Shown here: positions 1,200 to 63,593 of the stretch, piece by piece
Layout: each line of letters starts with the position of its first letter
Numbering within the stretch: the first letter of the stretch is position 1
Source: Mactromeris polynyma
Taxonomy: Eukaryota; Mollusca; Bivalvia; Venerida; Mactridae
DNA: 64,000 nt
Assembly (NCBI GenBank): GCA_032209605.1
Contig: JASFXZ010000035.1
Span: forward strand, 4,407,001 to 4,471,000
Direction: 5' to 3'
The notes under the pieces: generated by a model
What the model was told of the DNA's origin: nothing
Database searches by the model: none
Seen by the model: the letters and a program-made list of their open reading frames with translations, nothing else
Translations under genes and position numbers: made by a program

Positions 1200-4100
1200 A
1201 TGGTCCGTTTCGGAATGCTTCTTGTATTCCTCGTCCACATGCATTCACGTAAGTTACATTTTTATATGTTTGTAAACAAAATGGAAATTGTCACACAAAG
1301 ACCAGGTTGCGGAGTGATAGTATAATATTGTTTGATAATGAGGGCATGCTTCGATATGTTATGCGGTTCGTGCGGAAACTTCTTGCATCAAAGGAAAATA
1401 TCCATGAATAATGCATAATTTGTATTTTTGGTTGACTATTAAAACGATAAAATATACAAACCTTCAATATTTACGTCCACTTTTCAGTTTCAACATGTTG
1501 TAGAGAAACGCTTGATGAAGTTTGGGGTATTTCATGCATGTATTGTGTTGGTAGTATATTGTATAAAGTATATATCCATGTACATTTTTGTATTATTGGT
1601 CGACTATAAAAAGCGATTAAATATTCAACATTTGCGTCCAGTAATCAGCTTCAACAATGTCGTGGAGGAACACTTGATGATGTGTTATGTATTGGATAAA
1701 ATGCTATTGTTATTTGTGTTTTGTATTAATATTCATGCATATGTATGCTTATCTTTAATATAAAAAGTAACTGTCTTGTGTATGTGGCGTTGCATGTAGT
1801 TACGTATTCGCTCTCTTTTATCATGTATAAATCAATACATATTGTATATGTAATAACATTTTTGAGATTAATATTTTTGGTCGGACACATTTATTGTAGC
1901 TAATTAAAATCACGATTGTAATGTTTTATGCATCAATTAAATATACAAAGGAGAGTGTTAAAAAATAAAGTACTGCTATTATGAATTGAACAAGGAATGT
2001 TAGATTATTAATGCAGTAACGTCGTATAATCTTATGAAGCGTTGACCAGATATAAAGTAGTAACGTTTTCTAAATAAAAAAAGACTACAAACTTCGAATA
2101 TTTGCGCTATATAGCTACATGTTCCACCCGCTTGTATATTTTAATATTTTTCCAACTTTAGCTTACTTTGGTTACAGTTACAAGTGCAATTTTACCAGAA
2201 TGTGAAAACTGTGGTTGCTGTGTAGATAAGAAGTGTAAAGGAAAAAGAGTTGAAGGTGGGTATAGGGATGAGGTTTGTACAGAAGGCTGTATTGACGGTT
2301 ACGGTGGACACAAGTGCTACAACAAATGTCCAAAAGATTGTGTAACATGCGAACAGGCTAAAACTATTAATTGTGCAACCTGTGCCGACGGACTATACTT
2401 ACATGCCAGCAGACGTTGTGTAGATTGTCCAGACAGATGTAAACAATGCACATCAGAAACAAAATGCCAGGAATGCAATTTCCCTTACAACAATGATGAC
2501 ACGACAACGGACTGTTCTTTATCATGTCCGAGAAATTGCTTGTGTGGAACTCCCGGTGTCTGCTCCTCGTGTAAAGATGGTTACTACAATCTGAAAAATG
2601 ACTGTCTTGATGCCTGTCTAGATACATGCAAAACATGTACAGATCAGACACATTGCCAGTCGTGCAAACCTTCTTATTCAGGTGATATGTGTTGCATACA
2701 AGAAGGCCATTGTCGTAAGTGTTTGTCAAGTACAGTTTGTGAGAAATGTGCTGGTGGTTATCATGGAGACAAATGTAACTTAACATGTCTAACAACATGC
2801 CAAATTGTGGAAGAGGAATCGCCGTGTAAACAAAGTAGTGGCATTTGTAAAAGCTGTGAAGACGGGTCCTATGGTGACTACTGTAGTACGAATTGCAGTA
2901 GGAATTGTTTACAGAATCGTTGTAACAAGGAAGATGGACATTGCACCGATGGTTGTGCTGGTAGTTATGAAGGCCCAAAATGCATGCAAGGTAAATATAA
3001 ATATTAGTTGATGTAATTATCTTTACATTAGTAGTATTCCGTTAATATTAATGTTAAACACACATTTGCTATAAATTAACTAGTATGTATATTAATATCA
3101 ATATCCATGAAACAAGCACATGCTCTAATAACATGTATCGTCAAATATTTTGTGAAATAGGAGGCCAAAAATGTGTTCAAGATTTACACCCTTTATTTAG
3201 TAGAATGACCTAACCAGTGTTCCTTTGTTAGCAACCAGTTCTTATATGTGCTTCCGGAAGAAATGACATTCAAATATTATGAATCACGGGTGGAGGGAAA
3301 CCAAACTTCGAAGTATTACCATGTATCTACAGTATAATTGGCAAAAAGAACATATTTCTCACCAGGGTACAAACATGTGCCCTCCATGTCAGCATACGGG
3401 GGATCTTCATACTAAGTTTAGTGAACCAGGGTGGCTAAATAAGAAACCAGGGCAACATTATACATTAATTATGAAAGTAAATTATTATAAATAATTATTG
3501 TCGAGCAGTTAATGACGCAAATAAAGCATACGACATCCTTAAAGGCAAGAATATACCTGGTAATATACGACCATTAATACATAAAACAATGTTGTATTAT
3601 CAATCGTAAAACCTATCATTTTATGCAGTGAAGAGTGAATCAGGCATGATTGGTGCTGCAGTCGGCGGTGGGCTAGCGAGTTTTGTGATTCTCATAGTCA
3701 TTGTGATTGTGGTTATAGTTGTGCTCCGAAGACGGTACGTATAAATCCGTGGCTCCATTTTCTTTCTCAGTGTTTCCCGTTCATTTACGTTACTTAATAC
3801 CACCGAACAGTTAATATTTTGTGCTTGTATAATTTTCTTTCACTATTGAAGTGCATATTTTCATTGAACATAATAATTTTAAAACGCGTACAACATCCAA
3901 ATACGCTATTGGTTTATTAACATGAAACAATTCAACCATTTACTTTCTACACAATTATATTACTGATGTTTGAATTTTTGTGTATACTTTCTCATCAAAT
4001 ATCATGAATAAAGTATGCGTCTATGATATTAGCATATAATAAAACGTACTAGATGTGCCTAATCACAATGTATAACAAAACATGTCGATATGACAGTATA

Positions 4101-4903
4101 CACATAATATGTTGAAATAAATATAGTAATTTGATGTAAAGACATTTTACATAATTATAAATATTAATTGTAGGAAAATGAAACAACTGCGAAAATTCCA
4201 AGAACCTGCAAATATTGCAACCTATGTAAACACGTTACAAACATCATCGACTGATGCAGTAGATATTTGTGTCATCAATGAGCAGATAGGTAGGGCCGCT
4301 TTTCCTATTTTTTTTTCAACATTTATTAATCAAACTAATTCTATATATTAAAAACTTTCTAATTGTTGCTTGTGATCGGTTATTTTGGTTATGTTGAATA
4401 TCCTAGTCAGTACTCGTACAACAGCACGCCCAAGTCCCTTGAATTTAACAAAAATGTATTCGACTAGCAGTTCAGTATTTTATCGTATAAAGGAATAAGA
4501 GAGACTACTAACAAAACGGAGAAACAATCAAAATCCTGACATCCAGATGGATTGCAATACTTCAAGTAAAATGTACTGGCTGTGTCCATGTTATTTTGAG
4601 CTTGTTGTATTGTTGCCGAAACTCTTGCATAGTTATGTTCTAGCTGTGTCGATGTTCGTTTTGAGATTATTGTACATATTCGGTAGTTCTTGTATATAAA
4701 TCATTTGTTTGTGTCATTAAGAATCAACAATATATTATAGAATATTAGGCACTTCTTGTAGATAAGAAATATTTTGCACTTGCTCTTAATAAATAATCAT
4801 CGTTTGTATTTGCTTTTCAGATCAGTCTGATTATGAAAGGCTTGACAAAAGGAATAACACAAGCAATGATGACTACGACCAAATTAAGTCCGTGAATCAA
4901 TGA
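1200..4903 (+). CDS. Gene A: EGF-like scavenger-type receptor with an ITAM tail (388 aa)
   Basis: Single-pass receptor resembling MEGF10/Draper-type proteins. Coding exons: 1200-1248, 2178-2990, 3629-3734, 4174-4289, 4821-4903; all boundaries are GT-AG and the phases agree (1, 1, 2, 1), giving an open frame to TGA at 4901-4903. The 16-residue first exon is a hydrophobic signal peptide. Exon 2 holds about 50 cysteines in EGF/furin-like repeats. Exon 3 encodes a Gly/Val/Ile-rich transmembrane helix followed by RRR. The last two exons encode about 65 cytoplasmic residues that include ATYVNTL and an ITAM, YERL-x10-YDQI. No phosphatase domain follows. Its transmembrane exon matches that of the phosphatase paralogues D and E rather than B and C. 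The ligand is unknown; a phagocytic or immune recognition role is inferred from the family. It appears intact. Confidence 0.8.
2178..2990 (+). CDS. Gene A exon 2: complete cysteine-rich ectodomain in one exon
   Basis: Open 813-base exon, phase 1 at both ends, bounded by GGTTACAG and G|GTAAAT. It begins at the signal cleavage region and ends just before the stalk and membrane helix. Cysteines are paired in short C-x2-C and C-x3-C steps typical of EGF/furin-like repeats (for example RCVDCPDRCKQC). D has an exon of identical length and very similar sequence; E's is 804 bases. Because both ends are in phase 1, the whole ectodomain is an exchangeable module. Confidence 0.85.
4821..4903 (+). CDS. 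Gene A last exon: ITAM and stop
   Basis: Acceptor TGCTTTTCAG ends at 4820. The exon encodes D-Q-S-D-YERL, ten intervening residues, YDQI, then K-S-V-N-Q and TGA. The two tyrosines (codons at 4832 and 4874) fit the ITAM consensus YxxL/I-x6-12-YxxL/I. In known receptors of this kind, Src-family kinases phosphorylate both tyrosines and Syk-type kinases dock. The same exon is readable in B (10231-10328) and C (18485-18558). Confidence 0.8.
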
Positions 4904-6535
4904 ATTAAAACATTTAAATAGCACCAGATTCGTCAGAACAAAACAACACATTATTAAGTTTCGGATGCTTAATATGTTAACATGCTCATGATTAAAACAG
5001 TTTTCATAGTGACATCTACAATTAACCACTGTGTTTATTGTATGACTAAATTAAGGCGGTGGATCAATTTATAAAATATACTTGACCTACACCAAATTCA
5101 GCTTATTTATCCATTGGATTAAGTTTTAACATGCTCTGATTTTTATAATTCTAAAACAATGTTTCTGTTTAACCAATGTGCTGAGTGTATGATTATTAAT
5201 AAGCCATATGCATAGTTTCATTAGAGGATGGATTGAACGGATGCGGGTAACACCACACATGCAAGACAATGCACCTCCCACACAGATGCTTGGGAAACAT
5301 AAGCACACAAAACACAAGGAGTTGAAATGGTCTAACGGCAAACACATATACGGATTGGGCTGTTTTTTTGTTGTAGATAAATACTTTCACTTACATACAA
5401 GTAGCCTCTACACATGCATGTGCATGTGTATTGGATTCATGATTCTTCAATATCTGACATTTTAATCATAGCATAATCTTGTCAGTGTTGATTAGTGTAG
5501 CAATACCACTGGACGAAGCCCGTTCAAAGAGAATATGTTTAGAAGGGCCCGATTCATTTAATAAAAAAAATTGGAACAGGAATGCCACAAACATCAACAG
5601 ACCAAACGAGAGGCCATTAGAAGTCGAATCAAAAGCAAAATAGATAACCAAATCATTATGAAAAACGTCTAACGTTTGAGGTTTCCTTCCTTTTTACAGA
5701 CCACTTAATAATTAGGACCTTTAGAACCAATGGTATAGAGGTTTTCTTTGTAATTTTCACTGTTGGTACATTGGCGAACACATACAGAAACCGAATTCCA
5801 ATTGTAAACCTGTAAATTTGGTATTTGTTCGTTAACACTACGTCTATCGTATTTTGCTAACATTTATTATTGTCGAAGTTGGACATATGTCCATTGAGCT
5901 TTGTAGTGTATGTAAAGTATAAAATTACGAAATGCAGTAGATAAAACGTTATCTGTATTCGAAGTATGTATTATTTCATTTGATGTTAATTTATTTCAAC
6001 ACGTTTTTTTCAAATCCTCTTCTGTACTACATATACTGTGGACTCTAGTTGGATGGAACTCGGTGGCGTCGAACAACCTGGATACCACAAACTGATAACC
6101 AAGACCCAATAAACCTCTGTATATATTCAATATTGCTCTACTACTGTTGGTTAGAACTACCCAGCTTCGAACGCTCGAAGAAATAACCAGGTCCCTTCAA
6201 TATTAGGTACTCATAAATCGAATCGTTAGGTTGAACAGTATATTTTGTCACTTCATATTTGGCTAAGCGCAATTGTGTTAAATTGCACTAAGAATAGATG
6301 TGCTAAAACATTCGTTTGCAGTTGTTTGCCGATAGATAAATGTACATCCGATTAAATTGTCAAACTTATAAAAGCATCATACCGTGAACATACATACCCG
6401 AGTAGAATGTGCAAAATAAAGTTAAGTCCTAAATATTTAATTTTGAGGAACGAAATCCGTCATTAGTATCCGGAGCAATGGTACATTGATTGGTCGAACG
6501 TTTAGTAAAGTGATTAGTTGGGTATTGCTATTGCA
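4904..6535. other. Spacer between A and B
   Basis: No coding exon was found. At 5221-5345 there is a copy of the dispersed repeat that includes ACACAGATGCTTGGGAAAC and is related to blocks at 10630, 18920 and 48148. At 6036-6195 lies a degenerate element beginning CTGTGGACTCTAGTTGGA that recurs at 21066 and 49637. At about 6440-6510 is a short block (CCGGAGCAATGGTACATTG) repeated near 21530, 23385, 46890 and 50090, which seems to mark the start of each duplication unit. Confidence 0.5.
6036..6195. repeat. Degenerate transposon-like repeat (copy 1 of 3)
   Basis: Begins CTGTGGACTCTAGTTGGA and contains GTCGAACA, CCTGGATA and CTTCGAACGCTCGAA motifs. Homologous stretches occur at 21066-21215 and 49637-49790, in equivalent positions of duplicated spacers. 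The opening resembles pogo/Tigger-type termini, but I cannot pair both ends here. Confidence 0.4.
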
Positions 6536-7189: not shown

Positions 7190-7465
7190 AAGTACCAGTA
7201 CGACTTCTCCCATTCACCGCACAATTTGCTAAATACATTTAGATCTTTGATGGATATATCACCTCGTATCTTGTATATTAACATGTTTACTAAATACGCC
7301 TGTATTATAGTTGTATACAGTATAGTATGTCATACTATGTCATAATATTCCATAAAACAATCTTCAAATATGGTGGCGTACTACGCAATATACTATTGTT
7401 ATTTTAGACATGTAGATCGTGTAAATTTGATTGTTGGTAGGTTTTTTTCAGACATTGCTACCGCT

Positions 7466-10328
7466 ATGGTCCGTTCACCTTTCGGAATACTTCTTGTGTT
7501 CCTCGTCCAAAATGCATTTACGTAAGATACGTTTTTATATTTGTGTAAACAAAATGGAAATTGCCACACAAATACCAGGTTGCGGAGTGATAGAATAATA
7601 TTGTTTGATAATGCGGGCATGCTTCGATATGTTATACGGTTCGTGCGGAAACTTCTTGCATCAAAGGAAAATATCCACGAATAATGCATAATTTGTATTT
7701 TTAGTTGACTATAAAAACGATAAAATATACAAACCTTCCGTATTGACGTCCAGTTTTGAGTTTTAACATGTTGTAGAGAAACGCTTGACGAAGTTTGGGG
7801 TATTTCATGAATGTATTGTGTGGGTTGTATATTGTATTAAGTATATTTCCATGTATAATAGGGGAGTGCGATAAGCTTCTCGCTAATCGAGTGTCCATCT
7901 TTAATATAAATAATATTTGTTATTATGTATCAATTAAAAATGTAAGATAATTTGAGTAATTAATTCTCTGGGTGAACCTATTTTGTGATTATGCTTATTC
8001 AAACCAAGAATAGTAATGGTTAATGTTTTATACTGTTTATTAAGTTAGCAGAGGAGAATGTGTAAATGTATAGTACAGAATATTGAAATCATGAAGTTAA
8101 GTTTTTGTATTGAATGGGGAGTTAGGTGAATGATGACCAGTGCATTTATTACGCAGCATTGTCATCTCTCAGTAATAATTAATGCAGTAACGCCATCTAA
8201 CATTATTGAGCTTTGACCAGATATGAATTAGTAACGTTATGCAAATCAACGAAAGACAATGTACGTCGAATATTTGAGATATATAGCTTCCATCCGCTTG
8301 AATAGTTTAATATGTTTCCAACTTTCGCTTACATTAAATCAGTTTCAAGTGCAATTAAACCAGAATGTGAAGACTGTGGTTGCTGTGTACATACAAGAAT
8401 TGTGAAATGTGTGCCGACGGACAATATTTGCATACCACCAAACGTTGTGTAGATTGTCCATACAGATGTAAACAATGCACGTCAACAATAGAATGCCAGT
8501 AATGCAATTTCCCTTTCTACAATGATGATAAGACAACGGACCGTTCTTTATTATGTCCACACAATTGCTTGTGTGAAACTCTTGGAGTCTGCTCTGCATG
8601 TAAAGAAGGTTACTACAACCCAAGCAATGAATGTCTTGATTCCTGTCCATAAACATGCATGACCTGTACCGATAAGACACATTGCTAGTCATGCAAAGCT
8701 ACCTTTTCGGGTGATGTCTGTTGCGTACAAGATGGTCATTGTCTCAATTGTCTGTCAAGTATATGAGGATTGTGCTGCTGGTTATTATGGAGAGAATTGT
8801 AACTTACAAGTAACATGTCCAACAACATGCCATTATCTGGAACATAAATCGATGTGTGAAAAAAACAATGGTATTTGTAAAGGCTGTCACGAAGGGTCTT
8901 ATGGCGATTACTGTAATAAGAATTGCAGCGAAAAGTGTATCAAGAAGCGCTGTCACACGGGAAATGCATGTACACCAGATATCAAATCCTTATTCTCATT
9001 ACATGTAATATACCCATTCATTGAATCAAACTGCAAGATATTGATTCGTTCAAAGTTACGCATCCGTGTTTTTATTAACACACATAATAATTTGAAATAA
9101 TGTGAACTATCCTAAGTTTGTATCTGATCCCCAGTATTCCTCGACAGAACGACAGACACCGGTAGGTTGGTACTTCAACAGCCGTTTGTGTAGTCATAGT
9201 TTCTGTCGTAATTGTGCTTGCCGTTATCACTATCAGATGATGGTAAGATGGACAATTGTATACAAGCATAATTACAAGTGAGGCATTCATTTAATTTCTG
9301 TGACTATACTTTATCGAAAATCATATATAGTTAAAAAGCAAATAAAACGTTAAAAAGTTTACATCTCCAAACACAAACGATGAAATTGGACCATTTACAT
9401 TCTACATTATAATTACCAACGTTATTAATTTTGCTATATTTGGGTCAAATATATGTATTTAACTTATTAGCGTATAACCAAACGTATCAAATGTGATGTG
9501 AGCTGTGCACCTGATCACAACACGTGCGTTAGTATATACATCAAAAGTTATACTAAATATAGTAAATATGTTAGCTAAATAAGTAGTTGTGATTATTCTA
9601 CTTACCAGTGAATACATGTGAAAGTAATGTAATAACAACTGCGAAAACACCAAGAACCTGCAAATATTGCAACCTATGTAAACACGATGCAAACATCATC
9701 GACTGATGCAGTATATATTTGTGTCATCAATGAGCAGATAGGTACACCGCTTTTCCTAATTGTGTTTTAATATTTGATATTTTTTGTTGCTTGCGATCGG
9801 TTATTTTGGTTATGTTGAGTATTCTAGTCGGTACGTATACAAAAGTACGCACACCTCCTTTGAATTTAACATATATATTCGACTGTCAATTCAATGTTTT
9901 ATCGGATAATGTAGAGAGACTAATAACAAAACAGAGTAATAATCAAAGTCAAGACATTCAGATATATTACAATACTTATGTTCTAGCTGTGTTTCGAGTT
10001 TGTTGTATGTTTCACGTAGCTGATGTGTAGAAATGTATGCTTATGTACTTGCTGTGTCGATGTTAGTTTTGAAAACTTCTGAGTTTGTTGTATTTTTCCC
10101 GTAACTCTCGTATAGAAAGCTAATCTTTTGTGTCATTTATAAATCAACAATTTCTTATATAATAGCATGTACATCTTGCATAAACCTGCACTTACTTAAT
10201 GAATAATTATCGTTTGTATATGCTTTTCAGATCACCCTGATTATGAATGGCTGGACGAAAGGAATGCCACGAACAATGATGAGTACTACCAAATTAAGTC
10301 CGTGAATCAATCAAATGAAAGCAATTAA
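7466..10328 (+). pseudogene. Locus B: broken ITAM-type receptor
   Basis: Recognisable parts: signal exon 7466-7521, ectodomain remnant 8343 to about 8985, transmembrane exon 9135-9242, tail exon to 9741, ITAM exon 10231-10328. Breaks: the signal exon carries an extra base and ends in phase 2 instead of 1; the ectodomain has an internal deletion just after TGTGTACATAC and several in-frame stops (near 8500, 8650 and 8686); the transmembrane exon has a small deletion that shifts frame into a stop; the acceptor of the fourth exon near 9630 seems lost. The last exon is nevertheless clean: YEWL-x10-YYQI. Its transmembrane exon resembles that of C (RTTDT region), not that of A. Confidence 0.75.
10231..10328 (+). 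other. Locus B ITAM exon, still open
   Basis: Acceptor TGCTTTTCAG is kept. It reads D-H-P-D-YEWL, ten residues, YYQI, K-S-V-N-Q and then five further residues to TAA at 10326-10328. It is intact although the upstream exons of the locus are wrecked. Confidence 0.65.
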
Positions 10329-11352: not shown

Positions 11353-11515
11353 CTTAATTAACTTTATATAAGTTAAATTCACACGAAAATGATGTTAGGT
11401 CGCAGTGGTCTAGTGGTTTGCATAACGGACCGGCAATCCGTAGACCCGGGTTGGGATCCCGGTAGCGCCATTGACAGATTTTTGTGTTCCTCCATACATG
11501 ACTTTGTTTAAATAC
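11353..11515 (+). mobile_element. Short element with an internal tRNA-like promoter (plus strand)
   Basis: An A-box-like stretch (GGTCTAGTGGTTTGCATAA) and a B-box-like stretch lie in a tRNA-like segment at 11399-11470 whose anticodon arm would read GGC (Ala). The T loop is mutated and position 33 is C, so it is unlikely to be a working tRNA. The same element lies inverted at 20697-20870. Paralogous spacers near 19270 and 48095 read straight through, so this is an insertion. It is unusual in having about 45 AT-rich bases ahead of the tRNA-like part. Confidence 0.55.
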
Positions 11516-11699: not shown

Positions 11700-11882
11700 T
11701 GCAGAACAGTAATACTTCACCTGAAGACCACCTCAATAATAAGCCTCCTCAAAATTAAGAACACAATTTTCAAGTTCATGACTCGCTTTTCATTGGTTTA
11801 CTTTTTATTAAATAGTAAGACCTCCTCAATAATAAGTCCAGTTTTGAGGGGTTCCAATGTTGGTTATTATTAAGGTTTTGTT
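11700..11882. mobile_element. pogo-like small DNA element (decayed)
   Basis: Left end has ACCTCAATAATAAG-type sequence; right end has TATTATTAAGGTTTTG, an imperfect inverted repeat of it. The best preserved relative is at 37809-37969, where both ends and a TA duplication are visible. Others are at 19550-19712, 20049-20215, 48432-48597 and 48944-49123. Confidence 0.45.
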
Positions 11883-14155
11883 GTATATGTGTTGTCACAA
11901 ATACACCAAATCTTTATCTTTATACATAGCAAAGAACAAAACCTGTTCTTTTTCCTTTGATGACAAATTCCGACGACAGGAATTTTTATTATTTGATTTT
12001 GTTAAGCCGTGGTGTGCAGCATTATATTGTAACAATGAATGTAATGAATAGTATTATCATTTGAGATTCAGTGTAAATGTACCACAAAAATTTCGTGAAC
12101 TTAATATTGTTGCTCAGCAGTCTGCTGATACTGGATGTGAAAAGAATAGAAAACTTAGTATTCTACGAGATTCACTTTGTTTGAGGGTTCGGTTTAAATC
12201 TGAGATTTAAGAAATTTTAGAATATAGTTTTTACACTCCGCAATCAGAACTAAAACCAGACCCTCAATAACATATACTGACTAAGATCTCAATGAAAGTA
12301 GATAACCAAGAATACGAATCACTTAAAATATGACCCACTTTGCAGTCTTAATTATTCATACCCGTACTCAATAGGGCACATTTTGAGTTCTGAGTACTTA
12401 GAATAATAGTCATAATACCGATCCCAGACAACAATACCGTTTTTCCGTTGTCCAGTTTTATTTTCCTTCCTTATCTTTGACCACTTCACAATTAAGGCAT
12501 TCGGAACCAATAGTATACATAGTATTGAGATTGTTTTTATATTTTTCACTGTGATACATTAGCAAACACATTACGACACAATAAATCCCATTTGATAAGA
12601 AAACGCAGTGGTTAAACCTATCCATTAAGAGGTTCACATACTGTCGGTCATCGTTTATTCTACAACATTATATCCGAATACTTGGTATAATCCGAAATAA
12701 TTATCAGGTCCTAATATATTTTTTGCCCGTCGAATTGAAGTAAGCTATTCGACAACATGTATTATTCGATATAGATTTCGGACCCGATGAATTCGAATGA
12801 ACGAGGTTCGACTGTATGTACAAAACCGATTGTTATGTCGGTGGGATATTTCTTTAATTCAATAGGGCAATAAAAATGAGACATATTTACAAGTTGAAAT
12901 ATAATGACATTGCACAGTAATTGAAGCATTTTACAAAACTTCCTAAATAAAACAACTTATTTGTGATGAAGCAAAATAACACTGTACATTTATTTCAAAT
13001 ATAGTGCAACATAATGTACTATGTTTGATTGCAAGAGTGATTATCATATAAACCCATTATGTATTGTTAAACTTTTGTTCAGTCTTTAGATATTTTCAAA
13101 GATGTATAGAATGATTACCATAGTATCTTGCTGACATTTACCAAATATTGCGGAATAAGAAACAAAATGTCCATCCATTCCCTGTAGCTACTTATTATCT
13201 CTCTTTTATAATTATTTTTTGCAATAACATGATAAATGTACTTTTAACGTTGTTTCTTGTCAAACAACAGTAAGTCTTCGTTTAAAAGAGAGAGAACAAG
13301 TTGCTATAGGGAACGCCCTATACATAAGTGCCCCCCTACACAGACATCCGGGGAAAACAACAATCAATAAAGCAAAAGGCATTTGAAAATGTTCAAGTTT
13401 CATACGTGAGGGAACAGAGGCCTGGTCGACCATAAGGAATAAGCAGGAGAATCAAAGAGGACAACCAGTGGAAGGGGGGAATTAATGGATGGAAAAGATC
13501 ACAGGACAAATCAAGACAGCTGGCAACAATAGGTCGAAACTGGGCAGAAACTATCATGAACACTATATAAAGTGAAAGAGTTGCACAGGGGAAAGGAAAA
13601 TATGACATACATTTAAAACATAAAAAGAAATAATAACCATACAGCAAATTACAGCATTGGAAATGTCAGAAACAATACCGAGGATTTGAATCGTTTCAAC
13701 GGCTAGCCAACCTCACACTTCATCGCTATATGGTCAATGTTTTCCAACATATACACATAAATGGACTGTTTATGAACAAACTTATCATTTGTAATAAGTA
13801 TAACTTGTTAAAGCCTAATAAGAAATTTGAATTAAAGATACGAGTTAACGTATGGGACTTACGTGGTAAGATTATATATAAATTTGTAATTATTGATACA
13901 AATATTTCAGACCAGGAACAAGAAGCTTTACGCACACTTACAATGCAATGATATTAACACTGTTTTTATTTTATTTAATTTCTAATAACTGAATTGACTT
14001 AATGCGAAAAGGACGACACCATGGCTAGGTGGTGTAATATTTTGCTGTACAGCGCAAATGTTATGTGGTAAGATTGTCCAAATGCAGCATTCGTTGTGCT
14101 TAAACATGGCAGACGACTGACTATATCATTGTAGCACCTCTATTAATGTCATGGT
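11883..14155. repeat. Duplicated spacer block, first copy
   Basis: Noncoding block whose second copy is 44505-46760; a third, partial copy is 47115-47405. The correspondence runs in order from CACAAATACACC (11896) to ATGTCATGG (14155). It contains the long form of the dispersed repeat at about 13283-13540 (GGGAACGCCCTATACATAAG, AGGTCGAAACTGGGCAGA). No gene was recognised in it. Confidence 0.6.
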
Positions 14156-40797: not shown

Positions 40798-40799
40798 TG

Positions 40800-46990: not shown

Positions 46991-47114
46991 TAGTTTGTAG
47001 TTGACTTGATCCATTGTACTAGGCCAATATATGTCGACTTGTGTTATAACTGTTTGTATCTGTACTCTTTGTGAATTAGTATGTGTTCGTTAGTGTTGAA
47101 GTGATGAATATCAA

Positions 47115-50966: not shown

Positions 50967-53900
50967 ATGGTCAGTTTACATTTTGGAATACTTTTGGTAT
51001 TATTCATGCACTTGCATTCACGTAAGTTACATTTATATATCAGTGTAAACTTTCGGAGTGATAGGGTACTAATGGTCATTGATCGGCTACATGTTTGATC
51101 ATGTGAGTGTGTTTAAAAAGCATACAATTGTTATAAGGTTCCTGGAAAAAACGTTTGGTATTAAATGATAATATTGGTGAATTTAGTGCATAATTTGTAT
51201 TTTGAAGGATTATAAAAAATGATACAATGTACAAAAGTTAAATATTTACTTTCAGTAATCCGTTTCAACATGTTGTAAAGAAAGTGTTGATGATGTTTTT
51301 GGTATTGCATGAATGTTTTGTAGTTATGCATGTTTATTTGTATGTCTATGAAGTTTTATAGATGATCTCGAGAGCGATGAGCCTATGTTTTATAAGTAAA
51401 TTAATGCTAGTGATTACTTAGATTTCTCATTATGGACCATTTGTGTAACAATCTAGCTAATTAAAATCTGGAACATCAATAATTGTTATGTTTTATACAT
51501 CAATTAAACAAACAGAGGAGAATGTGTGAAAAGTACTGTTTACATTATGAATAAATGCTTTTGTAATGCATTAGAAATATGGAAAATAAGGACCATTTCA
51601 TTAATTAGGCAGCATTGTCACCTCTAAATAAGTATAAATGCAGAAACGCCGTCTAACCTTATTAAGCTTTGACCATATATGAAGTAGTAACGTTATAAAT
51701 CAACGAAATACAATTAACTTCGAATATTTGCGCTATATGGCTACATGTTCCATCCGCTTGGATAGTTTGATATGTTTCCCACTTTCGATTACATTGATTA
51801 CAGTTTCAAGTGCAGGATGTGAAAACTGTAGTTGCTGTGAAGATGGGTTGTGCGGTACAGATTACGCTGAAGGTACAAACACAGATGAGGTTTGTACCAT
51901 TGGATGTGTTGATGGTTACGGTGGACACAGGTGCTACAACAAATGTCCCACGGATTGTGTAACATGCGAACAGCATGCACATACAAAGTGTGCAACGTGT
52001 GCCGACGGACAATACTTGAATACCACTGAACGTTGTACAAGTTGTCCAAAGCATTGTAAAAGTTGTGTGTCAAGCACTATTTGCCAAGAATGCAATCACC
52101 CTTATTACAATGATGACACGACAACAAACTGCTCTTTATCATGTCCGAGAAAGTGCTTGTGTGAAAACATTGGTGTCTGCTCCTCATGTAAAGATGGTTC
52201 CTACAATCTGGGGAATAACTGTCAAGATGCCTGTCCTGGTACATGCAAAACATGTACAGATAAGACACATTGCCAGTCGTGCAAACCTTCCTATTCGGGT
52301 GACATGTGTTGCATACAAGATGGCCATTGCCACAAATGCTTTTCCAGTACAGAATGTGAGATATGCACTGCTGGTTATTATGGAGCAAAATGTAACTTAA
52401 CATGTCCAACAACATGTCAATTTGTGGAACAGGAATCGCTGTGTGAAAAAACTACTGGCATTTGTGAAAGCTGTGAAGATGGGTCCTATGGTGACTACTG
52501 TACTATGAATTGCAGCGGGAATTGTTTACACAATCGTTGCAAAAATGATGATGGACATTGCACGGAGGGTTGTGCTGGCAGTTATGAAGGCCCAAAATGC
52601 AAGCAAGGTAAATACAAATTTTAATTGATGTTATTATCTTTAGAGAAGTCGTATCCGTAAATATCAATCTAAACACATGTTTGCTATTAAACTAGTATAA
52701 CAACAATATCCATAAAAATACACATGCTCTTATAACCTGTATCGTCACAACATAACTATTTTATGTGAAATAGGAGGTCAATAATGTGTTCAAGATTTAC
52801 GCCCGTTATTTAGTATAGTATTTTAGTCATAAAACGGCGACAAGTACACCTAACCAGTGTTCCTTGGTTACCAACCCTTCCTGTTATGTGCTTCTGGAAG
52901 AAATAACAACCAAAAAATATCATATATCATGGGAAACGATCTTTGAAGTATTACCATGTATCTGCCGACAAATTTGCCAAAGAGAACATATTTCTTACCA
53001 GGGATACAAACTGGTGACCTCCATGTCAGCTCTACCATTTTGATAAACCGGAGTGGCAACATTATACACTAATTTTGAAAGTAAATTAAAACAAATAAAA
53101 TGTCGAGCAGATAAGGCAAACGGCCTCCATAAGAGTATATGTCACTTTAAATAAATACAAATATGTTAGTTGCACGATATATTTATCGTAATGTCTTCAC
53201 TCGTGTTGTTTTATTTTATGTAAGCTTTGATTAGTGAATCAGGCACGATTGGTGTTGCGGTCGGTGGTGGGCTAGCGAGTATTGTGATTATCATAGTCAT
53301 TGTGATTGTGGCCAGAGTTGTGTTCCGTAGACGGTACGTATAAATCCGTGGCTTCATTTTCTTTCTTATGCCTTTTTTTGCATTTGCGTTACGTAATACC
53401 GCCTCAAACTTAATATCTTGTTCTTACATGTACCAATTAAAATATCGAATTCATAATAATGGTACTTTGTCGCAAGATATCAAGAGCAAACTTCCGATTT
53501 AATTTCTAATTCATAATTGTATGTCTTATAATTTTTTTTGAATTAAAATCAGATATTCGTATCATTTTTTCTTGGCGATACCTGCTTATGATAGAATTTT
53601 TGTAAATGCATTATTTCAGCGTTAATACAGGAATGTTACTAAAATGTTCTACAGTGGATTCAAATTAATCGTGAATACAACGATTGTCAAAATTTTCCTT
53701 AACGCGATTTCATTGACTCCACACAATGTTGCTACAACTGTGCCCACTTAAGTATAAACGGACTATATTTAGTTTCCGTATTTCAGTTATGTTTAGAAAC
53801 AACCCCAACTAATTGATAATATTGTATCTAGGCGACGGGCTGACAACCATCGTGATGATCTGAAGCAAGATAAAGAACAAAACTTCCTTCAATATCCAGG

Positions 53901-56900
53901 TAAAATTCATTGGTCGTCGTTTTTATAGCATACGACATGCAACGATAAAATACCTCCTTTTGTCATCAGGCAGCCATAATATATATAGTCCGATCAAATT
54001 AAGTAGCTATACACGACAATAGCTTTAATGTTGATTTTGGTAATAAACACGCAAAATACTGCACCAATACATTGAAAGACATGTAAAATTATGCCATACA
54101 TCACATTTTTTGCACCAATAATGGCGTTATCAACATATAATTATGTACCTACTTTTGATGTTTACGCTTCAATATGTAGAGTAAACTTGAATGACAAACT
54201 AGGAAGTATTGATTGAATTTCATTCTGTATATCGTGCATTTTTGAAAGCAAAATATGTTAAGATATGTATGTACGTATACACATTGATATGAAACTATGA
54301 ACCATCTGTACATAAGTATGCTCGAAGAAAACATATATAATACAATAATGATTTTTCATAAATATAGGCCCTTCTTGTAGTAAGGACAAGACAACAAAAA
54401 AATTAAGTATTAAAAATGAAACAGTTAATCTTGAAGAAGACTTGGAAGAAATCGACGATGGAGAACTCTTACATAATGTCGCTGTGAGACAGGAAGCAGT
54501 CTATGAGAATGTGACACGGGTGGCTGTTGCCGGGCTAGAAGTGTATGTAAGGAGGAAAACGAAAGAAACTTACAAACAGGAATTTGCGGTACTTCGTAAT
54601 ACTGAAAATGTTCATAGAATGTAAAAATGATGTATACAAGATATTGTGGGTATTTTGATTTTGGAATAAAACTTTGTGATACTTCTTATTTAGAAAATAA
54701 TCATGATTTGCCACATTCTCTACATGATGCAAAATGAAATACGGGACTTGATAATTGAAGTTCTTGATTTTGAAACAATACTACTTTGCAGTTTAGAATA
54801 CGTATGAAAACTTCGTAATTATTTTGGAATACTAAATTTAACCTCAACCGTAGTTATAAGTTATTGATCCTGATTGCTTAATTTAAAAAGTGTTTTGATT
54901 CAACTTTTGATTAAAAAGATATTAAATTGCCGCATGCTAACGAAAATGCCTCCCCACACTATACTAACTGTTTAAAAACTGTTTTGTTTTATAGCAATTA
55001 CCAAAGGGCATGACTCAGAGTTACAATGATTCAATGAAACCTGAAAACGTTGTAAAGAATCGATTCAAAGGACTTTATCCTTGTAAGTGTTTTAAATACA
55101 TATACGTGTGTAGGTGTTGCTTGCATTTGGCAACAGATAATGATATTTCGGTTTGCAAGTTTAATAATATTTGATTGCATTTAGTTTTAATACAAAGTGA
55201 TTAGGCATAAGTTATCGCAACATTATTGAAGTCCTCTCCAAGAACATTTACACAATCATGGCAACTGTCATGGTTTGCCAGTGCCTCACTACTTATAGTA
55301 TATTAATTCATGTCGTTAAACAAAGGTAACAAAGAGCGCAAATCATTGACACAATTAACTATCATATTGTTATGAGTAAGTAATAGCATGTTTCTTATCC
55401 ATTTTAGACATATATTGTTTCATTCTTTCTACATATCGTGAGTATATTTAGATTTGTCCTCCGATTTTAGATGACCACTCCAGAGTCAAGATAAAAGCTG
55501 ATCCGAAGTTTTTCATAAACGCTTGCTTCATTGGTGTAAGTCGTTTTATATAATTTATATATTAAGTGTTCTGCTTTCTTCAAAAACGTGTTTGCTTTAA
55601 ATACAAATATAATGCATAAAACTGTTTTGATTTTATCACCAAAATTAAACCAAATGTTTTGCTATTTTCTTATGTGTAACTATTCATGTTTACAGGGTTA
55701 TCAGAGGCTTAATGGATACATTGCATCAATAGGTATGTTACGGTTGTTGCACCTGTTCAAAAAAATAATTTTGTTGGAGAAAAATAAGTTGCTGAGATTA
55801 TTTCGATTTAACAGCTAGCTAATCTCACACTAATCGCTATATGCTCATTGATTTCGAACACATACACATAAATCGACTAAGTAGGCAGTAAATAATCATT
55901 AAAACCCATTAACCAGTACGTATATAACAACATACACTATGTGTATAATCCAGTACGAAGAAACAAGAATACACTCAAACTGGCTCTGTCCTATGATTGA
56001 ACTGTTATCAGTGTGTTTGCTTTTTCTTCACAAAATGTAATTCATCACGACTTTACATACTCCAAAATATCATTATATTACTTCAGAAATTCACATTATG
56101 CATGTTCATGACTTTTTCAGGACCAACAGAGAAAGCTACCGATAAGTTCCATACATTCTGGACAATGGTATGGCATATGAAATCTGATGTTATTGTGATG
56201 TTAACAAACCTCCATGAACCTAGTGTAAGTATGTTGTGAAATACTCTCCTTTAGCATCGGGCGCTTATTCCGATACCTTCATATTCACCCTCTGCTTTAT
56301 AACTCCAGCACAACTGATATTTTCTATATTTAGACAGGCGAGTTGACATGCGTCCACAGCCATTCAGCGAGCCACTTACAACGACTCGCTAATGTCCCAA
56401 ATGTAGGACAGTGTAAATAAACTTTATGCGAGTGTGCATTGAATAGACAGCTTTCACTGTCATAGAAATGCCGCTGTGGCTATGGAAATTGCTAGAAAAA
56501 CTAAATAAATATAGCGTAAATGACTATCGTTTCGTCGGCATGCCAAAATTATTCCGATGCCTGTAAATGTGTAGTGATTTAAGGTCATTTTAACTGTACG
56601 GGCGGAATCCGTGTATATTTTTAAATGCGTCATATCGTTACTTGGCATCTTGTTAATCAGATTCGACACGCTATTTTCAAAACTTATCAGTACAAACCTC
56701 GATGAATGAACGAAACACTGCCTTCTGTAAGTGCTACACGTTTAATGACTTGAACTAAAACCGATTAGCTAGATAGTCAAACTTTCCTTCGACGCGAAAG
56801 GCTGTACACTGCGTACACATTTTATTGGTTTAACACTGGAAAATACCCATCTATAATAAACTCAGTAGTCACGTGATCGTGTCGACCAATGGCATTTAGT

Positions 56901-59900
56901 ATCATGAACGAACGGTGATTTCGCAAGGTCAAATATCAAAATATACTGGGTAATACAGCAGCGGGTGAATGTAACGGTAGTGGAATCAAAGCGCTGTGTG
57001 GAGCGTAGTTGTGAAAGATGTCGACGTTACTCATTTTCTTCCTTAGTTTGCTTTGTAAACCGAACTGTTCTTTTACAAACAATCACTTTTTACAATCTCG
57101 TACTTAATGAGTTGTGCGAAGTCAACCTGTTTTTTCTCGCTATGATATTTTCTCAATTTGAGATTTTAATAAATTATGTAGTATGACGATGCTTAGTATA
57201 TCAAGCTATATATTCTATGTTTATTGACTTCCCGGACAGTTACAGACAAACAGTGAGGTGGTCAGCAAATGAAAATATATTTGATAAAATATCCACTAAT
57301 GGCCAAAGTGAATACAATAGTGGTATTCTCTACTAATATGCTATCCGCTATACATGTAATTCATTGTATTACAAATATCGAATAACATTACACTTCGAAA
57401 TATACATTTATGGTCCAAGTACTTAATAATTCGGTTTTGGTCGTAAATATTGTATACATCGTGTAGCATGCAAAACAACAAGCGTGATTTAGATGGAAAT
57501 TATGTTGGTCCTTCTCGGACTAGATTATATAGAGTCAGACTCAGACACAGAACTCATCATAAAAAACACTGTTCTGCCTTCCTGCTGCATTTCTTTGAAC
57601 AGTATGCTGCCAAACATTATGTTGACTCCGAACATTTTGTTTTCATATAATGTTCTTATTATACTTATGTATTGCGTGATATTCAACTATGTTATATCTA
57701 TTTTGTTTGGCTGACTGTAAAACGTAGTGTGAGCTTTACAGCACAGGTATGTGCCAAACAAATATGTTGACTCAGAACATTTTATCGTCATATAATGTTC
57801 TCATTTTACTTATTTTTTGCGTTATTATCAACTGATTTATTTTGATTTGCTGATTGTAACTTATTGTAAGCACATGTCTATATTACTAAATTGTTGTTAT
57901 ACTCGAATTATTCAGGGCAATAAATGCGAACAGTACTGGCCAGAAATGGACGGCACCAACATACATCAAGACATCGCAGTATCTTGTCAAAGTGTCGAAG
58001 TATTTGCTGAGTACACCGTCCGGACATTTACAATTGAAAAGGTAATAAAGCATATAAAAATCTAGTAGTCGAATTCTAGCCCAGGCGTGAACTGCATTCA
58101 ATAAATAATAAACGCATCACTATCGATCCATATAAAGGAATATATTGCATCCACTAACAAAGAAATGTATAAGTATGAAGATGATATATTTAGTGACTAG
58201 TCCATCTTAAAATACACGACGATATACGCAACAATGTCACCCTTTCTCCCCCTTTCGGCATATTGTTGCCAACTGTCTGGGCATGTCCTGCGATGTATTC
58301 CATCCAGTAAACCCCCTCATTTATACTTCTTAGATATCCTTTAGTGTCGGCCAAGCCATTCCTTGCACGCCTGTTTCCCTTGCATCTCCTCGAATAGCTG
58401 AACTTTTATGGATTGTTGTTTTCCGGGAGGTATGTCAGGGATGCATTGGATTATGTATGAGGCGTTTACTGCAGCAACGTGTGTATTTATAGATCTTGTC
58501 AATGGAAACGTGTGACTTTATTCGGGCAATGTGGGGTCAATGAAATGTACACTGTATGGTCCGATTAAACAATGTAGATATCTAACCATGACAGACAACA
58601 CGCATTATGTAATCACTGATAAGATGTGATCATTCCATGTGGTGGATGGCAGTTAGCATTGAGACTAGACGATTTACATTGTAGCCTTTTAATATGTTGA
58701 TTTGCATTTTTTTTTCTCAATTATTTTCCTGAACCTTTATAAACCAAAACGTTTCGGTTTCATATATGAATACAGACTATTGAATTTCAGAACTAAACAA
58801 ACTCTGATGTTATTTAATGTCTATACTTCTGTCTACCTTTGCTGCATAATACAATGAAGTATTTGAATAGAAACAGGAAGTTTTTAACGAACACAGTTGG
58901 ATCTATTTATGTTTTAAAATCTGATGCAATATAGTTTTGTTTATACCCACGAATAAGGAGATTATGTACACCAATAAAAACGCTCAAATATGCCCTAGGC
59001 CAGTCTTAAATACTCTTTGTTTGAGTGAAGTGGTCCTGGTCTGATGGTTTTGTGCCTAAAATCAATATAATATGAGGCACAATTCCACATACCGACTCAA
59101 CCAATCAAGTTTTGTGGGACGGAGGTACCTCAAATGAATAGTTTGCAGATCTGCTTGTATGGTTTTTCAATAGTACAGTGAAGCATTAGCTTAGGCACAT
59201 TGCGGCATAACGGTTAGTTTATTGCATAGTTGTTTTTAAAAATGCCTCAAATATATTCAATTATTGTTTATAAATGTTCATCTTATACATATAACTATTA
59301 TGTTCATCCATATACATGTTCATATATTGTTTGTAAGAAAACAAAGAAGAGAACCATATACCAACTTCACTACACTGCCTGGCCAGACAAGTCCATTCCT
59401 GATGAAATAACGAGTTTGGTAGAATTTCGACAAAAAGTCCGAAGTACGCCGCGTGTACTACAAGGACCAGTTATTATCCATTGCAGGTATGGATTTTAGT
59501 TGAATACATGTAATGAGCATTGTTCGAAAGTAAACGGCACTGAATTGGTACAGGCATATCAAGCAGGTACCATCAAAGTTTGCTTAAATATAAAACAGAG
59601 GTGTTATTTGCCAGTCGAGTAATCAAATAATTATTGATGACCCATCTATACACTTAAGCCTACCCATAAATATCGACTGAGCTACACCAAAATCAAAGAT
59701 AAATTTCATTTGTCACTGTTATTTGTACAATGATAGCTAAATTACACAAAGTTGAGGATTTAACTGATGAAAAGCCCTAGAAATTTAGGTTTTTATAGAG
59801 TGTTTACAAGCCACAAATACAAAAATACAAGCTTGTTCAAGAATTATGTAGACTGTTGCACATTATAGTAATTCATGTGTGGATAATAATGAAATTTACA

Positions 59901-62900
59901 TATAAGAATATGTTACTCTTTATATGTCAAATTATGGCAAATGTTCCATTCTTATTGCCATCGAACTTGTTTCTTCGTATTTCCATAGTAACTTTGGGTT
60001 TAATCACTAAAGTTGTTTATCAATGATATTTTTTTAACGAAAACAGGAGTGTATGAAGGTGTGAAGCAAAGCAGTTATAGAAGTAACACCAATTCCACTG
60101 GTGGCGGCACTAGCAGTAATACTGATACTAGTGTCTGCAGCGAGAATATAATACCTTCGAACTTTATATCATCTGTAAGAATACACTAAAATGTATAACA
60201 TTCCCAAATGTGAAATACTGAAAGTGAAGCCACTGCGAACGTCACTAAGATGATTTCTTGCTTTGCATAAAATCAAAAATTAGCAGACATCTTAAAATCA
60301 ACTTCATGTTGTTGTTACTTCTAACTATTAGTGCAGGGATTGGTCGAACCGGAACATACATTGCTCTAGACAGGTTGACAGAAGCTGGAGAGGCAGGGGA
60401 GAGAATCAATGTGTATGAATGTGTGAACCAAATGAGACAACAACGAGTTAGTATGGTGCAGACTCTGGTAAGTCAGACATGCAGGCCCGGTTCCACCGGA
60501 GGACCTAGGGGCCCCCAGTCGGCTTTGTAATGACCTTTTTCTATTCCTAATATAAAATATATCCACTGATTAGGTCTTAAGGTTACTATTCTTTTAGCAC
60601 TTTAAATACAATACATTGATTTAAGGTCGATTTCCTATTGTATACTACCAATATAGCGGAAGCAAGTGCAATAAAAGTTGGCCCCCTGATGTTCTCATCG
60701 GCCTTGAGACCGTCTAGAAAAATCGTATGCTTTTCACTCTACATCAGACAGGCGCTTTCAATTTCCTTATCATGTTGACAGCCTCTGTAAAACACAGGTT
60801 ATTGAGCATCATACGTAACAGAGACAAGAGATCTGTCGTGGTTTTGTTTAGTGTGAAACAGTGAAAATAAAATGTCCTACAATAATTTTAAACAATTCAA
60901 TAATTAATGGAAGGGAATATAATACTTGGGCCCAAAGTTTTGCAAAATAAAACAATTTTGTTTTTCTTGAACAAGCCTACTTTCATAGTTTCACATTTTC
61001 CTTATTATAATTGCATTTCAAAATGCTGTAATCTTTAAATTACATTTTCCTCATCGTATAAAGAATTTACATTCAAACTAAAACACATAATGGTTTTCTT
61101 TGTATTTTGAATACGTTCGCATTACCGCGACGAAACATTATACCTGCATGCATTCGTTATTTCAACTTAACCGAGTCATAAGATAAATTAAATCATTCAA
61201 AAGATTGAGTAATAAGACACCATCATTATTGTGGTCCTTTCATACAAGCAAGTTTTGTAGTGTGATATGCAAAATGCACTGTGTTAAATATTGGTTGGTA
61301 TTTGCATTCATGTATCGCTCTAACCTCGAATTTACCATAAAATCACGAATTATGATCATTTATTATCAGTTTCTTTATTGTTAAAGGTAAATATATTGAA
61401 TGTCTTTTTTAAATTGACTTAGTCATAAACATGAGAGAATGCCTACATACAGTTTGTACACATGTTCCCAAAACCACAAATACACGAGTCCGATACAGGA
61501 GTTTCTATCACGACGTACATGTCGTGATATCGCTTGCATATAGAAAATATCTGTTTGGCAATTCCGGAAAACTTCTAAGAAAAGTTATAATAGAAACTCG
61601 AGAATATTCCGACTATTTAGAATTAGCACCGCTAATTATGGGTATGTCGCGACATTACCTCCATAAAACCTGACAAGCCATACACATGTTGGGTGTATTT
61701 TCAAAAATGCCATGCTTGAAAACTATGCAACATAACTTCATTTCAAAAAGTTGTTTATAGAGGCAAATAATTAAATAATGTTCTCGTGTAAAACAATTGA
61801 GTGGTGATTTCTGTGCCAAATGGGCCATTTTTCTGCGCTGACAGCCAATTATTTTATGTCAGAGATGATAAACACATGTATTGTCTTTCAGAGAGCATAC
61901 ATAAACCCGTTTGTGGTTTAAGTATATACTTTAGGCGGTTAACAGTTAATACAGTTTATAAGTGAGCTCCCTGATCATGTTCATTTTGGACATTAAAAAG
62001 AGTCAACTTCTGCCAAATTAGCATGGAAGTTTAATATCTACACTATTTCACAGAGTTTATGACGAAATGGCTTCTTATTCACTTGTGACAAAGGTTTTTA
62101 CTGAAGGCTGACTTAACAAGATAATACAAGTGCAATTCTCATGAATGAGTCCTAAAAATGTAGACCCCAAAATGCACCTGAAGCCACCATTTCATATTAT
62201 ATTGTAACAATTTTACGGGGGAGATCCCGCGGACCCCGAGAGGAATAAATCCCTGCCCTACCTACTCCCACTCGGCGCCCACGGAATTTCTGGATCCGGG
62301 CCTGGACATGTTTGAATAAAACCTTAATGGAAACAACTGCAGCATAATTAATGTTTTCAATATAAACAAGCAAATATTTACTTCGTCTTTTCGTAGACAT
62401 TCCAAATTCAGTTCAAATATTGGTACTTACCCGAGAGATTGTCTTGTAAATGTTGTGTTGCTTGTTACAAACTAATATGTCTTCTTAAAAATCTACAATT
62501 CTTTTTACGGTTCGATAATATCATGTGATTTGTAAATTGTTATATGATATTCTCCGACGTACCACGTGTTTTGTGTTCAACCAGTGCATTGTCCAACATT
62601 TCAATGCCTGAATGCAGATGTGGGGTATTTTGAACTCGACGAATAGTTTCACCACAAATCCAGTATGGGTGGATTAGTTTTATTTTCGATAGCTTGTTAG
62701 ATGTTCGGTGATTGGAGAAATATTGGTGTTTTTTTTTAATTACTCATTGAAAAAAAACTAGTTTTTAATGCTAATTCATTAGTCAATTTCAGATAAAACG
62801 AGAGACATTTTTCTCTGTCCTGTGTCTCAGGTACTTCTATGAACATTTAGTTTCTGTCAAATTATCATAAATTTTATTTTAGGAGCAGTATAAGTTTCTT

Positions 62901-63593
62901 CAAAAGGCTCTGGTTTGCACGAAAACAATAAATTCCTGTTATGTTAGGTAACATTTCGGTCATATTAATTCATATTTCAGGAGCAGTATGAATTTCTCCA
63001 CAAGGCTCTCGTACATACACTGACGTTTAAATGTGAGTCAATTCGTGCGGCGGAGATTGGTGCTTACATAAGGGACACAACTGATGCTGAATTCAACAAA
63101 AACTTCAAAGTAATTAACAGTTAAGTACTCATAACCAGTAAAAATGTTGATTTTAAAATAAGACTTAACTGCACAATTTTTACCCTTCTTGAACTTTACC
63201 AGTCTTTCTTTCATATTAAAGTGAATTGAGTATTGATAAATATTAAGCACTTGAATGGAATATTACTCGTTTCTTTAACTCTATCTTTCATTTGTGTATA
63301 CATTCTTTGTGTACTAGCTTTAGATATACTTGGTTCACTATACTAATTAGACGAGCTCGATGCCTTTACGTAATAGATTACACAATGACAATTATGAAAT
63401 GTCCATGACATTTTGATGTTGTTGATCATTGTGCATTACATTAAACTGTAAGCAATTTGGTACTATCAATATCCTTCCTATTTGACGCAGTTGTTGAAGA
63501 CAATTATTGATGAGGAATTATCAGAGGACGTCCAAGCAAGGTCAGCAAATGCCCGTCATAACGATAAGAATAGAAAGAACAGTGACATACCAG
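50967..63593 (+). CDS. Gene E: EGF-like receptor tyrosine-protein phosphatase, partial at right edge
   Basis: Close paralogue of D. Exons found: 50967-51021, 51804-52607, 53225-53333, 53832-53899, 54368-54588, 54995-55082, 55471-55535, 55696-55732, 56121-56224, 57916-58041, 59338-59486, 60332-60467, 62981-63109, 63491-63593; the rest of D2 lies beyond 64000. Exons 4 to 14 have the same lengths and phases as in D. D1 is intact: WPD, HCSAGIGRTG, QRVSMVQT. The ectodomain exon is 804 bases, three codons shorter. The transmembrane exon needs the upstream acceptor TATGTAAG (53221-53224); the acceptor used in D has lost a base and would cause a stop. The helix ends VIVARVVFRRR, with an arginine not present in D. 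D1 also has KNRF. Confidence 0.8.
51804..52607 (+). CDS. Gene E exon 2: cysteine-rich ectodomain
   Basis: 804 bases, phase 1 to 1. It opens FSSAGCENCSCCEDG and ends GPKCKQG. The first 40 residues differ most from A and D; the last third is very close to them. Such patchwork similarity is expected from gene conversion. Confidence 0.8.
56242..57016. mobile_element. MULE-like nonautonomous transposon in intron 9 of E
   Basis: E carries 775 bases absent from the matching intron of D (29180 onward). The 9-base repeat GTTGTGAAA flanks the insertion (56233-56241 and 57008-57016). The ends share GCGCTTATTCCGATACC-like and GGTAGTGGAATCAAAGCGC sequence in inverted orientation. A 9-base target duplication with long imperfect inverted repeats suggests a Mutator-type element. 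No transposase frame. Confidence 0.65.
60047..60174 (+). other. Conserved open segment with splice sites in intron 11 of E
   Basis: Counterpart of 32256-32383: same 128-base length, AG and GT edges, open frame (G-V-Y-E-G-V-K). Does not fit the phase of its flanking exons. Confidence 0.3.
60575..60705. other. Extra 130 bases in intron 12 of E
   Basis: D reads GATTAGGTATTGAGACC, while E has about 130 more bases between GATTAGGT and CTTGAGACC. No inverted ends or clear target repeat are seen, so it may be an insertion in E or a deletion in D. Confidence 0.4.
62214..62312. repeat. GC-rich repeat in intron 12 of E
   Basis: Shortened counterpart of 34561-34712; keeps GGGGGAGATCCCGCGGACCC and GGATCCGGGCCTGGACATG but lacks the C run. 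Confidence 0.45.
62883..62947 (+). pseudogene. Partial duplicate of D1 exon 13 in E
   Basis: Reads E-Q-Y-K-F-L-Q-K-A-L-V after the acceptor TTTTAG, open for 65 bases to AG|GTAACA, 34 bases before the true exon 13 at 62981. Shared with D, so it predates their duplication. Confidence 0.5.

Follow-up and report, generated by a model that had tools for sequence, protein, structure and literature searches.

Most of what is known about paired receptors comes from vertebrates, although colonial invertebrates offer some parallels, and the locus described here raises the question of whether a bivalve mollusc has such a pair as well. It lies in a 64,000-nucleotide stretch of the Mactromeris polynyma genome (assembly GCA_032209605.1, contig JASFXZ010000035.1, positions 4,407,001 to 4,471,000 of the forward strand), which we call the window and within which all positions are given. 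A cluster of related genes and gene remnants, all on the + strand, runs along the window in the order A, B, C, F1, D, F2, and E, where F1 and F2 are ectodomain fragments that belong to the cluster in addition to A-E. An earlier note on this DNA had proposed a paired-receptor cluster in which one ectodomain is joined either to a tail with an immunoreceptor tyrosine-based activation motif (ITAM) or to phosphatase domains. Our analysis of the sequence indicates that the cluster is real and paired-receptor-like, with one ectodomain family attached to two unrelated inner modules, and the proposal has been strengthened by the mosaic structure of A and by recombination within the ectodomain exon. Our best explanation of the whole, namely a paired-receptor-like molluscan cluster whose copies have exchanged DNA and in which D/E restrains A, has in our estimation about an even chance of being correct.

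One ectodomain family and two inner modules

The models of A, D, and E are open without internal stops, and their exons meet at AG/GT sites in matching phase, giving 388 codons in A, 970 in D, and at least 725 in E, which reaches the window end. Gene A (1200-4903) consists of five exons, with every intron of the GT-AG type and a stop codon at its end. Exon 1 (1200-1248) runs from an ATG to a GT donor with exit phase 1 and encodes a signal peptide recognized by eye, while exon 2 (2178-2990), a stop-free stretch of 813 bases bounded by AG and GT and also leaving in phase 1, encodes the ectodomain with its 50 cysteines. The transmembrane segment is encoded by exon 3 (3629-3734), which shares 94.6% identity with D across 93 bases and 90.2% with E across 112 bases. 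Exon 4 (4174-4289) encodes a cytoplasmic linker that shares 95.5% identity with B across 111 bases and has no match in D or E. Exon 5 (4821-4903) holds the tail and the stop, and a motif search located YERLDKRNNTSNDDYDQI in it at 4832-4885; the tail of the protein reads ...DQSDYERLDKRNNTSNDDYDQIKSVNQ, and its motif is YERL-x10-YDQI. These two tail exons are also present after the ectodomains of B and C, where the motif remains in frame as YEWL-x10-YYQI and YERL-x10-YDQL. By itself the ITAM pattern is weak. Shuffling of the 68-residue tail of A produced YxxL/I-x(6-12)-YxxL/I in 1,259 of 200,000 shuffles (0.63%), and the six-frame translation of the window holds this relaxed pattern in 43 places, of which the A, B, and C tails account for three. 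Because of these 43 matches we ruled out treating the pattern as significant on its own, and it carries weight only because the gene whose tail contains it is correctly spliced. We also considered whether A is a truncated phosphatase gene, or one that normally continues into phosphatase exons, which had been named among the cases that would speak against pairing. The first was rejected and A has no phosphatase exons of its own nearby, as a tblastn search with the phosphatase protein of D gave no match at E<=1 in 1-24300 or 40021-50900.

The second inner module is that of D (24416-40008), whose count rises to 985 codons if an alternative acceptor at 26684 is used for exon 4. According to the gene model, D begins with a signal peptide exon (24416-24470, by eye), followed by an ectodomain exon of 813 bases with 50 cysteines (24935-25747), a transmembrane exon (26136-26235, by eye), a juxtamembrane exon (exon 4, 26729-26796), and an exon that combines juxtamembrane sequence with the start of the phosphatase region (27276-27496). 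The first phosphatase domain is spread over seven exons (27955-32676, from 27955-28042 to 32541-32676), in which KNRF, WPDKTIP, and HCSAGIGRTG were recognized by eye, and its end, the EQY of the Q-loop, lies together with the linker in exons 35388-35516 and 36021-36123 (35388-36123). A second domain follows in six exons (36860-40008) with HCLNGAKRSG kept, again by eye. Pfam reports two Y_phosphatase stretches in D (E 2.7e-118), and the signal peptide, the transmembrane segment, the motifs of the first domain, and the second protein tyrosine phosphatase (PTP) domain together characterize D as a tandem receptor tyrosine phosphatase. Domain 1 retains the P-loop HCSAGIGRTG, the WPD motif, and the Q-loop, and in domain 2 the WPD and KNRY motifs were unrecognizable by motif reading. 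The rule for tandem phosphatases, as far as it is set out in the cited source, is an active first and an inactive second domain (PMC7959691), and judging from its motifs the second domain of D is probably a non-catalytic regulator.

Gene E repeats this architecture with a signal peptide exon (50967-51021, by eye), an ectodomain exon of 804 bases with 50 cysteines (51804-52607), a transmembrane exon with a shifted acceptor (53243-53333), and juxtamembrane exons at 53832-53899 and 54368-54588. The first phosphatase domain and linker exons follow up to 63491-63593, so that the transmembrane, juxtamembrane, and phosphatase exons together occupy 53243-63593. E exits the window after exon 63491-63593, so that its second phosphatase domain would be encoded outside the window; the dual phosphatase domains ascribed to both genes are therefore found in D by Pfam, and only the first of them in E within the window. 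Some candidate acceptors of E were rejected on reading by hand. For the transmembrane exon, the acceptor that corresponds to the one in D breaks the frame, which the AG before 53243 preserves. Exon 4 runs into stops from either of the earlier acceptors and starts at 53832, the downstream acceptor being the only open one in E.

Some smaller features accompany these genes. The linker exon of A (4174-4289) contains YVNT, and YxN occurs twice in D, as VYENV in juxtamembrane exon 27276-27496 and as YANF at the C-terminus of the translation (39988-39999). We take all three to be possible Grb2-type SH2 sites, judging by their motif class. An antisense open frame of 130 codons lies over the linker exon in both D (36037-36426, - strand) and E (63507-63896, - strand); these frames mirror the D/E duplication and need not be genes.

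The ectodomains of these three genes form one family. Amino acid identity is 74.4% between A and D, 70.4% between A and E, and 69.3% between D and E, and each of the three has 50 cysteines that align with those of the others. The earlier note was exact in giving A and D single ectodomain exons of 813 bases, while its description of them as near-identical is too strong for identities of 69-74%. In Pfam at E<=1 none of these ectodomains matched an EGF or EMI model, and A yielded only a weak transmembrane model. A profile built from A, D, and E found eight matches at E<=10 among 2009 candidates, two of them below 1e-3 (P0079 and P0080), in which no transmembrane segment or tail is visible. One weak match with E 0.68, P0083 from Haliotis rufescens, is to a short receptor whose sequence ends in YEQL-x8-YTPL, and it suggests that a short receptor type with an ITAM tail may exist elsewhere. 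The best local match of the A ectodomain among 86 fetched proteins is P0002, a Mactra multi-EGF receptor phosphatase (34%, 89 bits), in a comparison set drawn mostly from D's own matches and thus biased toward phosphatase receptors. AlphaFold prediction of the ectodomain from three sequences gave a mean predicted local distance difference test score (pLDDT) of 30.9 and a predicted template modelling score (pTM) of 0.14.

Exchange of DNA among the copies

When A and its flanks were compared with the other copies in 200-base segments, with a match threshold of E<=1e-3, the closest relative changed along the gene. The segment starting at 200 matches E best, those starting at 300-1500 match B best (80-94%), and those at 1900-2100 match F1 best (69-94%). 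Between 2200 and 2900 the best match is D or E, and B and C match too in the ectodomain exon. Segments starting at 3000-3700 match D/E only (71-91%, some across just 33-90 bases), and those starting at 3800-5300 match B/C only (66-95%), with no D/E match at the threshold. These changes place one approximate junction in intron 1 (1582-2006), with B-like sequence upstream and F1/D/E-like sequence downstream, and another in intron 3 (3826-3900), with D/E-like sequence upstream and B/C-like sequence downstream. In A, both intron 2 and the transmembrane exon have matches in D/E alone, and the transmembrane exon of B and C is of its own type without a nucleotide match to that of A, although the encoded transmembrane proteins could be distantly related. 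The pattern of matches indicates that A is a B/C-type gene carrying a D/E-type block that begins late in intron 1 and ends early in intron 3. As collapse is common in highly duplicated regions, and this region is one, we considered whether the mosaic results from a false join of haplotypes or copies in the assembly. We regard such an artefact as very improbable, since the best match of A is at most 95% in any 200-base segment, which leaves no copy in the window as a source.

Exchange was also detected inside the ectodomain exon. The pairwise homoplasy index (PHI) test on exon 2 of A-E gave p 0.0005 for windows of 5, 10, and 15 and p 0.0010 for a window of 20, based on 608 gap-free columns with 74 informative sites in five sequences, two of which are broken; the value of 0.0005 is the floor of 2000 shuffles. 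This indicates that the exon has recombined among the copies. D and E, for their part, are 93% identical in the 408 residues of their common inside and 69% identical in the ectodomain. The rate of synonymous change (dS) is 0.057 in the phosphatase part, with a nonsynonymous to synonymous ratio (dN/dS) of 0.35, as opposed to a dS of 0.46 in the ectodomain, and the introns of the shared inside are 90-96% identical. The juxtamembrane dN/dS of 3.69 comes from a single synonymous change, which is too few for interpretation. From these values, the insides and outsides of D and E are judged to have different histories. Identity between the two genes climbs from about 82% to 96% at 26850-27100 in D and 53950-54200 in E, which marks where the diverged outer half gives way to a phosphatase half that the two genes have shared more recently.

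Exchange of this kind might only diversify ligand binding, so that the cluster would be an unpaired, recombining repertoire in which A and D see different ligands on different cells and their common ectodomain family is without meaning for signalling. The difference of 26-31% between the ectodomains in amino acids, the several broken copies, and the recombination within the ectodomain exon all fit such a repertoire, which we consider possible while leaning against it. It does not account as readily for the single D/E-matching block that A has in its intron 2 and transmembrane exon, placed on the other tail type, or for the relatedness of the 5' flanks of A and D/E, which are 72-82% identical in the longer matches. 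Because these flanks are related, shared expression of A and D/E would be allowed.

The broken copies and the state of gene A

Alignments place B at 7427-10328, with its ectodomain at about 8290-8975 and its tail motif at 10242-10295. The B ectodomain has seven stops in the frame of A, in an alignment whose 5' end is uncertain, or six in a differently restricted count. C lies at 16395-18555 with its tail motif at 18496-18549, and one stop and a one-base insertion were counted in its ectodomain, with another gap at the end of the alignment. F1 (22275-23368) corresponds to exon 1 and the beginning of exon 2, and F2 (44217-44504) is an ectodomain fragment with one stop in the frame of A, both again located by alignments. 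A 2.3-kb block is repeated at 87% identity downstream of B (11882-14154) and adjoining F2 (44513-46759). An inverted repeat of 85.5% identity (11359-11509 and 20702-20852) contains a tRNA-Ala(ggc)-like sequence at 20741-20812 (- strand) and a weaker tRNA-like match at 11399-11470 (+ strand), and these are probably a tRNA-derived short repeat. Scans of the window with Rfam and for tRNAs and tandem repeats returned nothing besides these tRNA-like copies.

Several observations weigh against our reading of the cluster. Two of the three copies of the A-type tail sit in broken genes, and the ratio of nonsynonymous to synonymous change per site (pN/pS) in the A lineage, at 0.52 over 148 codons, is not significant (p 0.095). 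The same ratio is 0.54-0.64 in B and 0.34-0.38 in C, and because broken copies give such values (0.34-0.64), pN/pS fails to tell live from dead copies here. The spacing of 10 in the tail of A satisfies the relaxed range of 6-12 and falls outside the classical ITAM spacing of x(6-8). A search with the A protein by itself found no relatives at E<=1e-3 among 1160 candidates. A shared ligand of A and D/E is not assured because of the ectodomain differences given above, and the D/E origin of the block in A is carried mainly by intron 2 and the transmembrane exon because B and C match the ectodomain of A too.

The first two of these observations would be expected if A were a decaying by-product of recombination, heading the way of B and C and no longer a functional receptor. 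We consider this unlikely, as A has 388 open codons with its splice sites, phases, start, and stop intact, and as its exon 2 stayed stop-free in only 226 of 4000 simulations (5.7%) at 8% neutral substitution; at 4% substitution it did so in 854 of 4000. The dN/dS between the tails of A and B is 0.9 over 26 codons, and conservation of the tail motif in B and C is weak evidence of selection because these are broken, related copies. Taking the open reading frame and intact signals together, we regard A as probably functional.

Known systems and a possible mechanism

The inhibitory member of a vertebrate pair recruits a cytosolic phosphatase through an immunoreceptor tyrosine-based inhibitory motif (ITIM), whereas D has its phosphatase built in, and the ectodomains of the CEACAM pair are of the immunoglobulin (Ig) type, unlike those of the cluster. 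The cluster resembles vertebrate pairs such as Siglec-11/16, which gene conversion keeps matched (PMC5701461), and CEACAM1/CEACAM3. For these pairs the cited sources describe related ectodomains with opposite tails, exchange between paralogues in the exons for ligand binding, and a nonfunctional allele in one partner (PMC5701461, PMC5112662, PMC2832619). The molluscan multi-EGF receptor phosphatases of Mactra, Mercenaria, Haliotis, and Crassostrea resemble D in having a cysteine-rich ectodomain, one transmembrane segment, a phosphatase region, and a C-terminal YxN, and P0001-P0011 and P0039 are 27-41% identical to D across 87-97% of its length. They differ from A in the distance between the start and the transmembrane segment, which a crude script puts at about 1.5 to 3.3 times that in A, and by the same script none of the 13 proteins with YxN has an ITAM-like pattern between the transmembrane segment and the phosphatase. 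PTPRE, PTPRA, and CD45 share the tandem PTP domains of D, and their ectodomains are not known to be related to those of the cluster.

Draper offers another comparison. An N-terminal EMI domain is a defining feature of the Draper/CED-1/MEGF10 group, and A was excluded as an orthologue because no EMI was found in it (Pfam, E<=1) and its tail lacks the NPxY that Draper has. The Drosophila system nevertheless resembles the cluster in opposing an ITAM tail (Draper-I) to a phosphatase-linked form (Draper-II with Corkscrew), as the cited portion of the literature describes (PMC8092387), although Draper is a single gene with splice forms and its phosphatase is cytosolic. Among other invertebrates, Botryllus FcoR and the Hydractinia allorecognition receptors combine ITIMs with an ITAM or hemITAM, in one locus in Botryllus (PMC12065747). 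These receptors differ from the cluster in being Ig-type with ITIMs, and the portion of the same source available to us notes no receptor phosphatase on a shared ectodomain (PMC12065747).

In our preferred reading D would antagonize A. Both A and D/E would sit on one cell and recognize ligands that are identical or overlap, and a Src-type kinase would phosphorylate the paired tyrosines of A, leading to recruitment of a tandem-SH2 kinase of the Syk/Shark type, as in Draper. Being about as tall as A on the outside, D/E would not be kept out of the contact by its size but drawn into it, where the first phosphatase domain of D/E would strip the tail of A and thereby set a threshold. One source treats the exclusion of CD45 by size as important in triggering ITAM receptors (PMC8222282), and a strict need for it is disputed in another (PMC5900011). 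In the cited part of a study of Crassostrea virginica agranulocytes, draper-like and MEGF-like transcripts (32 scavenger-receptor transcripts) and 20 phosphatase transcripts were raised in the same comparison (PMC13070813).

D and E could also cooperate with A as activators of the PTPRA/CD45 kind. Their first domain would free Src kinases, bound via the tyrosine of YANF, from the inhibitory phosphate at the kinase C-terminus, and engagement of D would prime the kinase for A. Among solved structures, the phosphatase of D is nearest by sequence to PTPRE (357.9 bits) and PTPRA (341.7), followed by PTPRS (329.5) and CD45 (287.6). The C-terminal YANF of D is PTPRA-like (we take the C-terminus of PTPRA itself to be YANF) and points to a possible role opposite to antagonism. 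Of the 78 matches to D, 13 also carry a YxN within their final 12 residues (P0001-P0012 and P0039, with that of P0011 placed differently), and the other 65, which are largely fish PTPRZ, lack it there. The C-terminal Tyr789 of PTPRA is a binding site for Grb2 and for the SH2 domain of Src, and the cited source calls it essential for Src activation (PMC11048185). YxN is, however, a short motif, and cooperation is not exclusive of antagonism, since Src-activating receptor phosphatases can strip ITAMs and CD45 is listed as an eraser in the part of the source consulted (PMC8092387). We regard cooperation as the main rival, possible though less likely than our preferred reading, and helper and antagonist roles of D can coexist.

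If antagonism of A by D/E is correct, the cluster may represent a form of invertebrate pairing whose inhibitory partner is a receptor phosphatase in its own right, with an ectodomain of the same kind and height as that of the ITAM-like receptor. A shared ligand would join kinase target and phosphatase, and exon exchange would keep the outsides matched while the insides remain opposite; we put this forward only tentatively. Paired logic, ectodomain exchange, and multi-EGF receptor phosphatases are each known, and neither their combination in one molluscan cluster with a built-in phosphatase nor any such pair in molluscs is described in the open-licence literature that we searched. The cluster makes it possible to test directly whether an ITAM-like receptor is silenced, or primed via Src kinases, by a receptor phosphatase that the same ligand brings in and that is not excluded by size. 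If our reading is true, the movement of an ectodomain block between an ITAM-like tail and a built-in phosphatase would show that paired logic requires neither ITIMs nor a recruited phosphatase.

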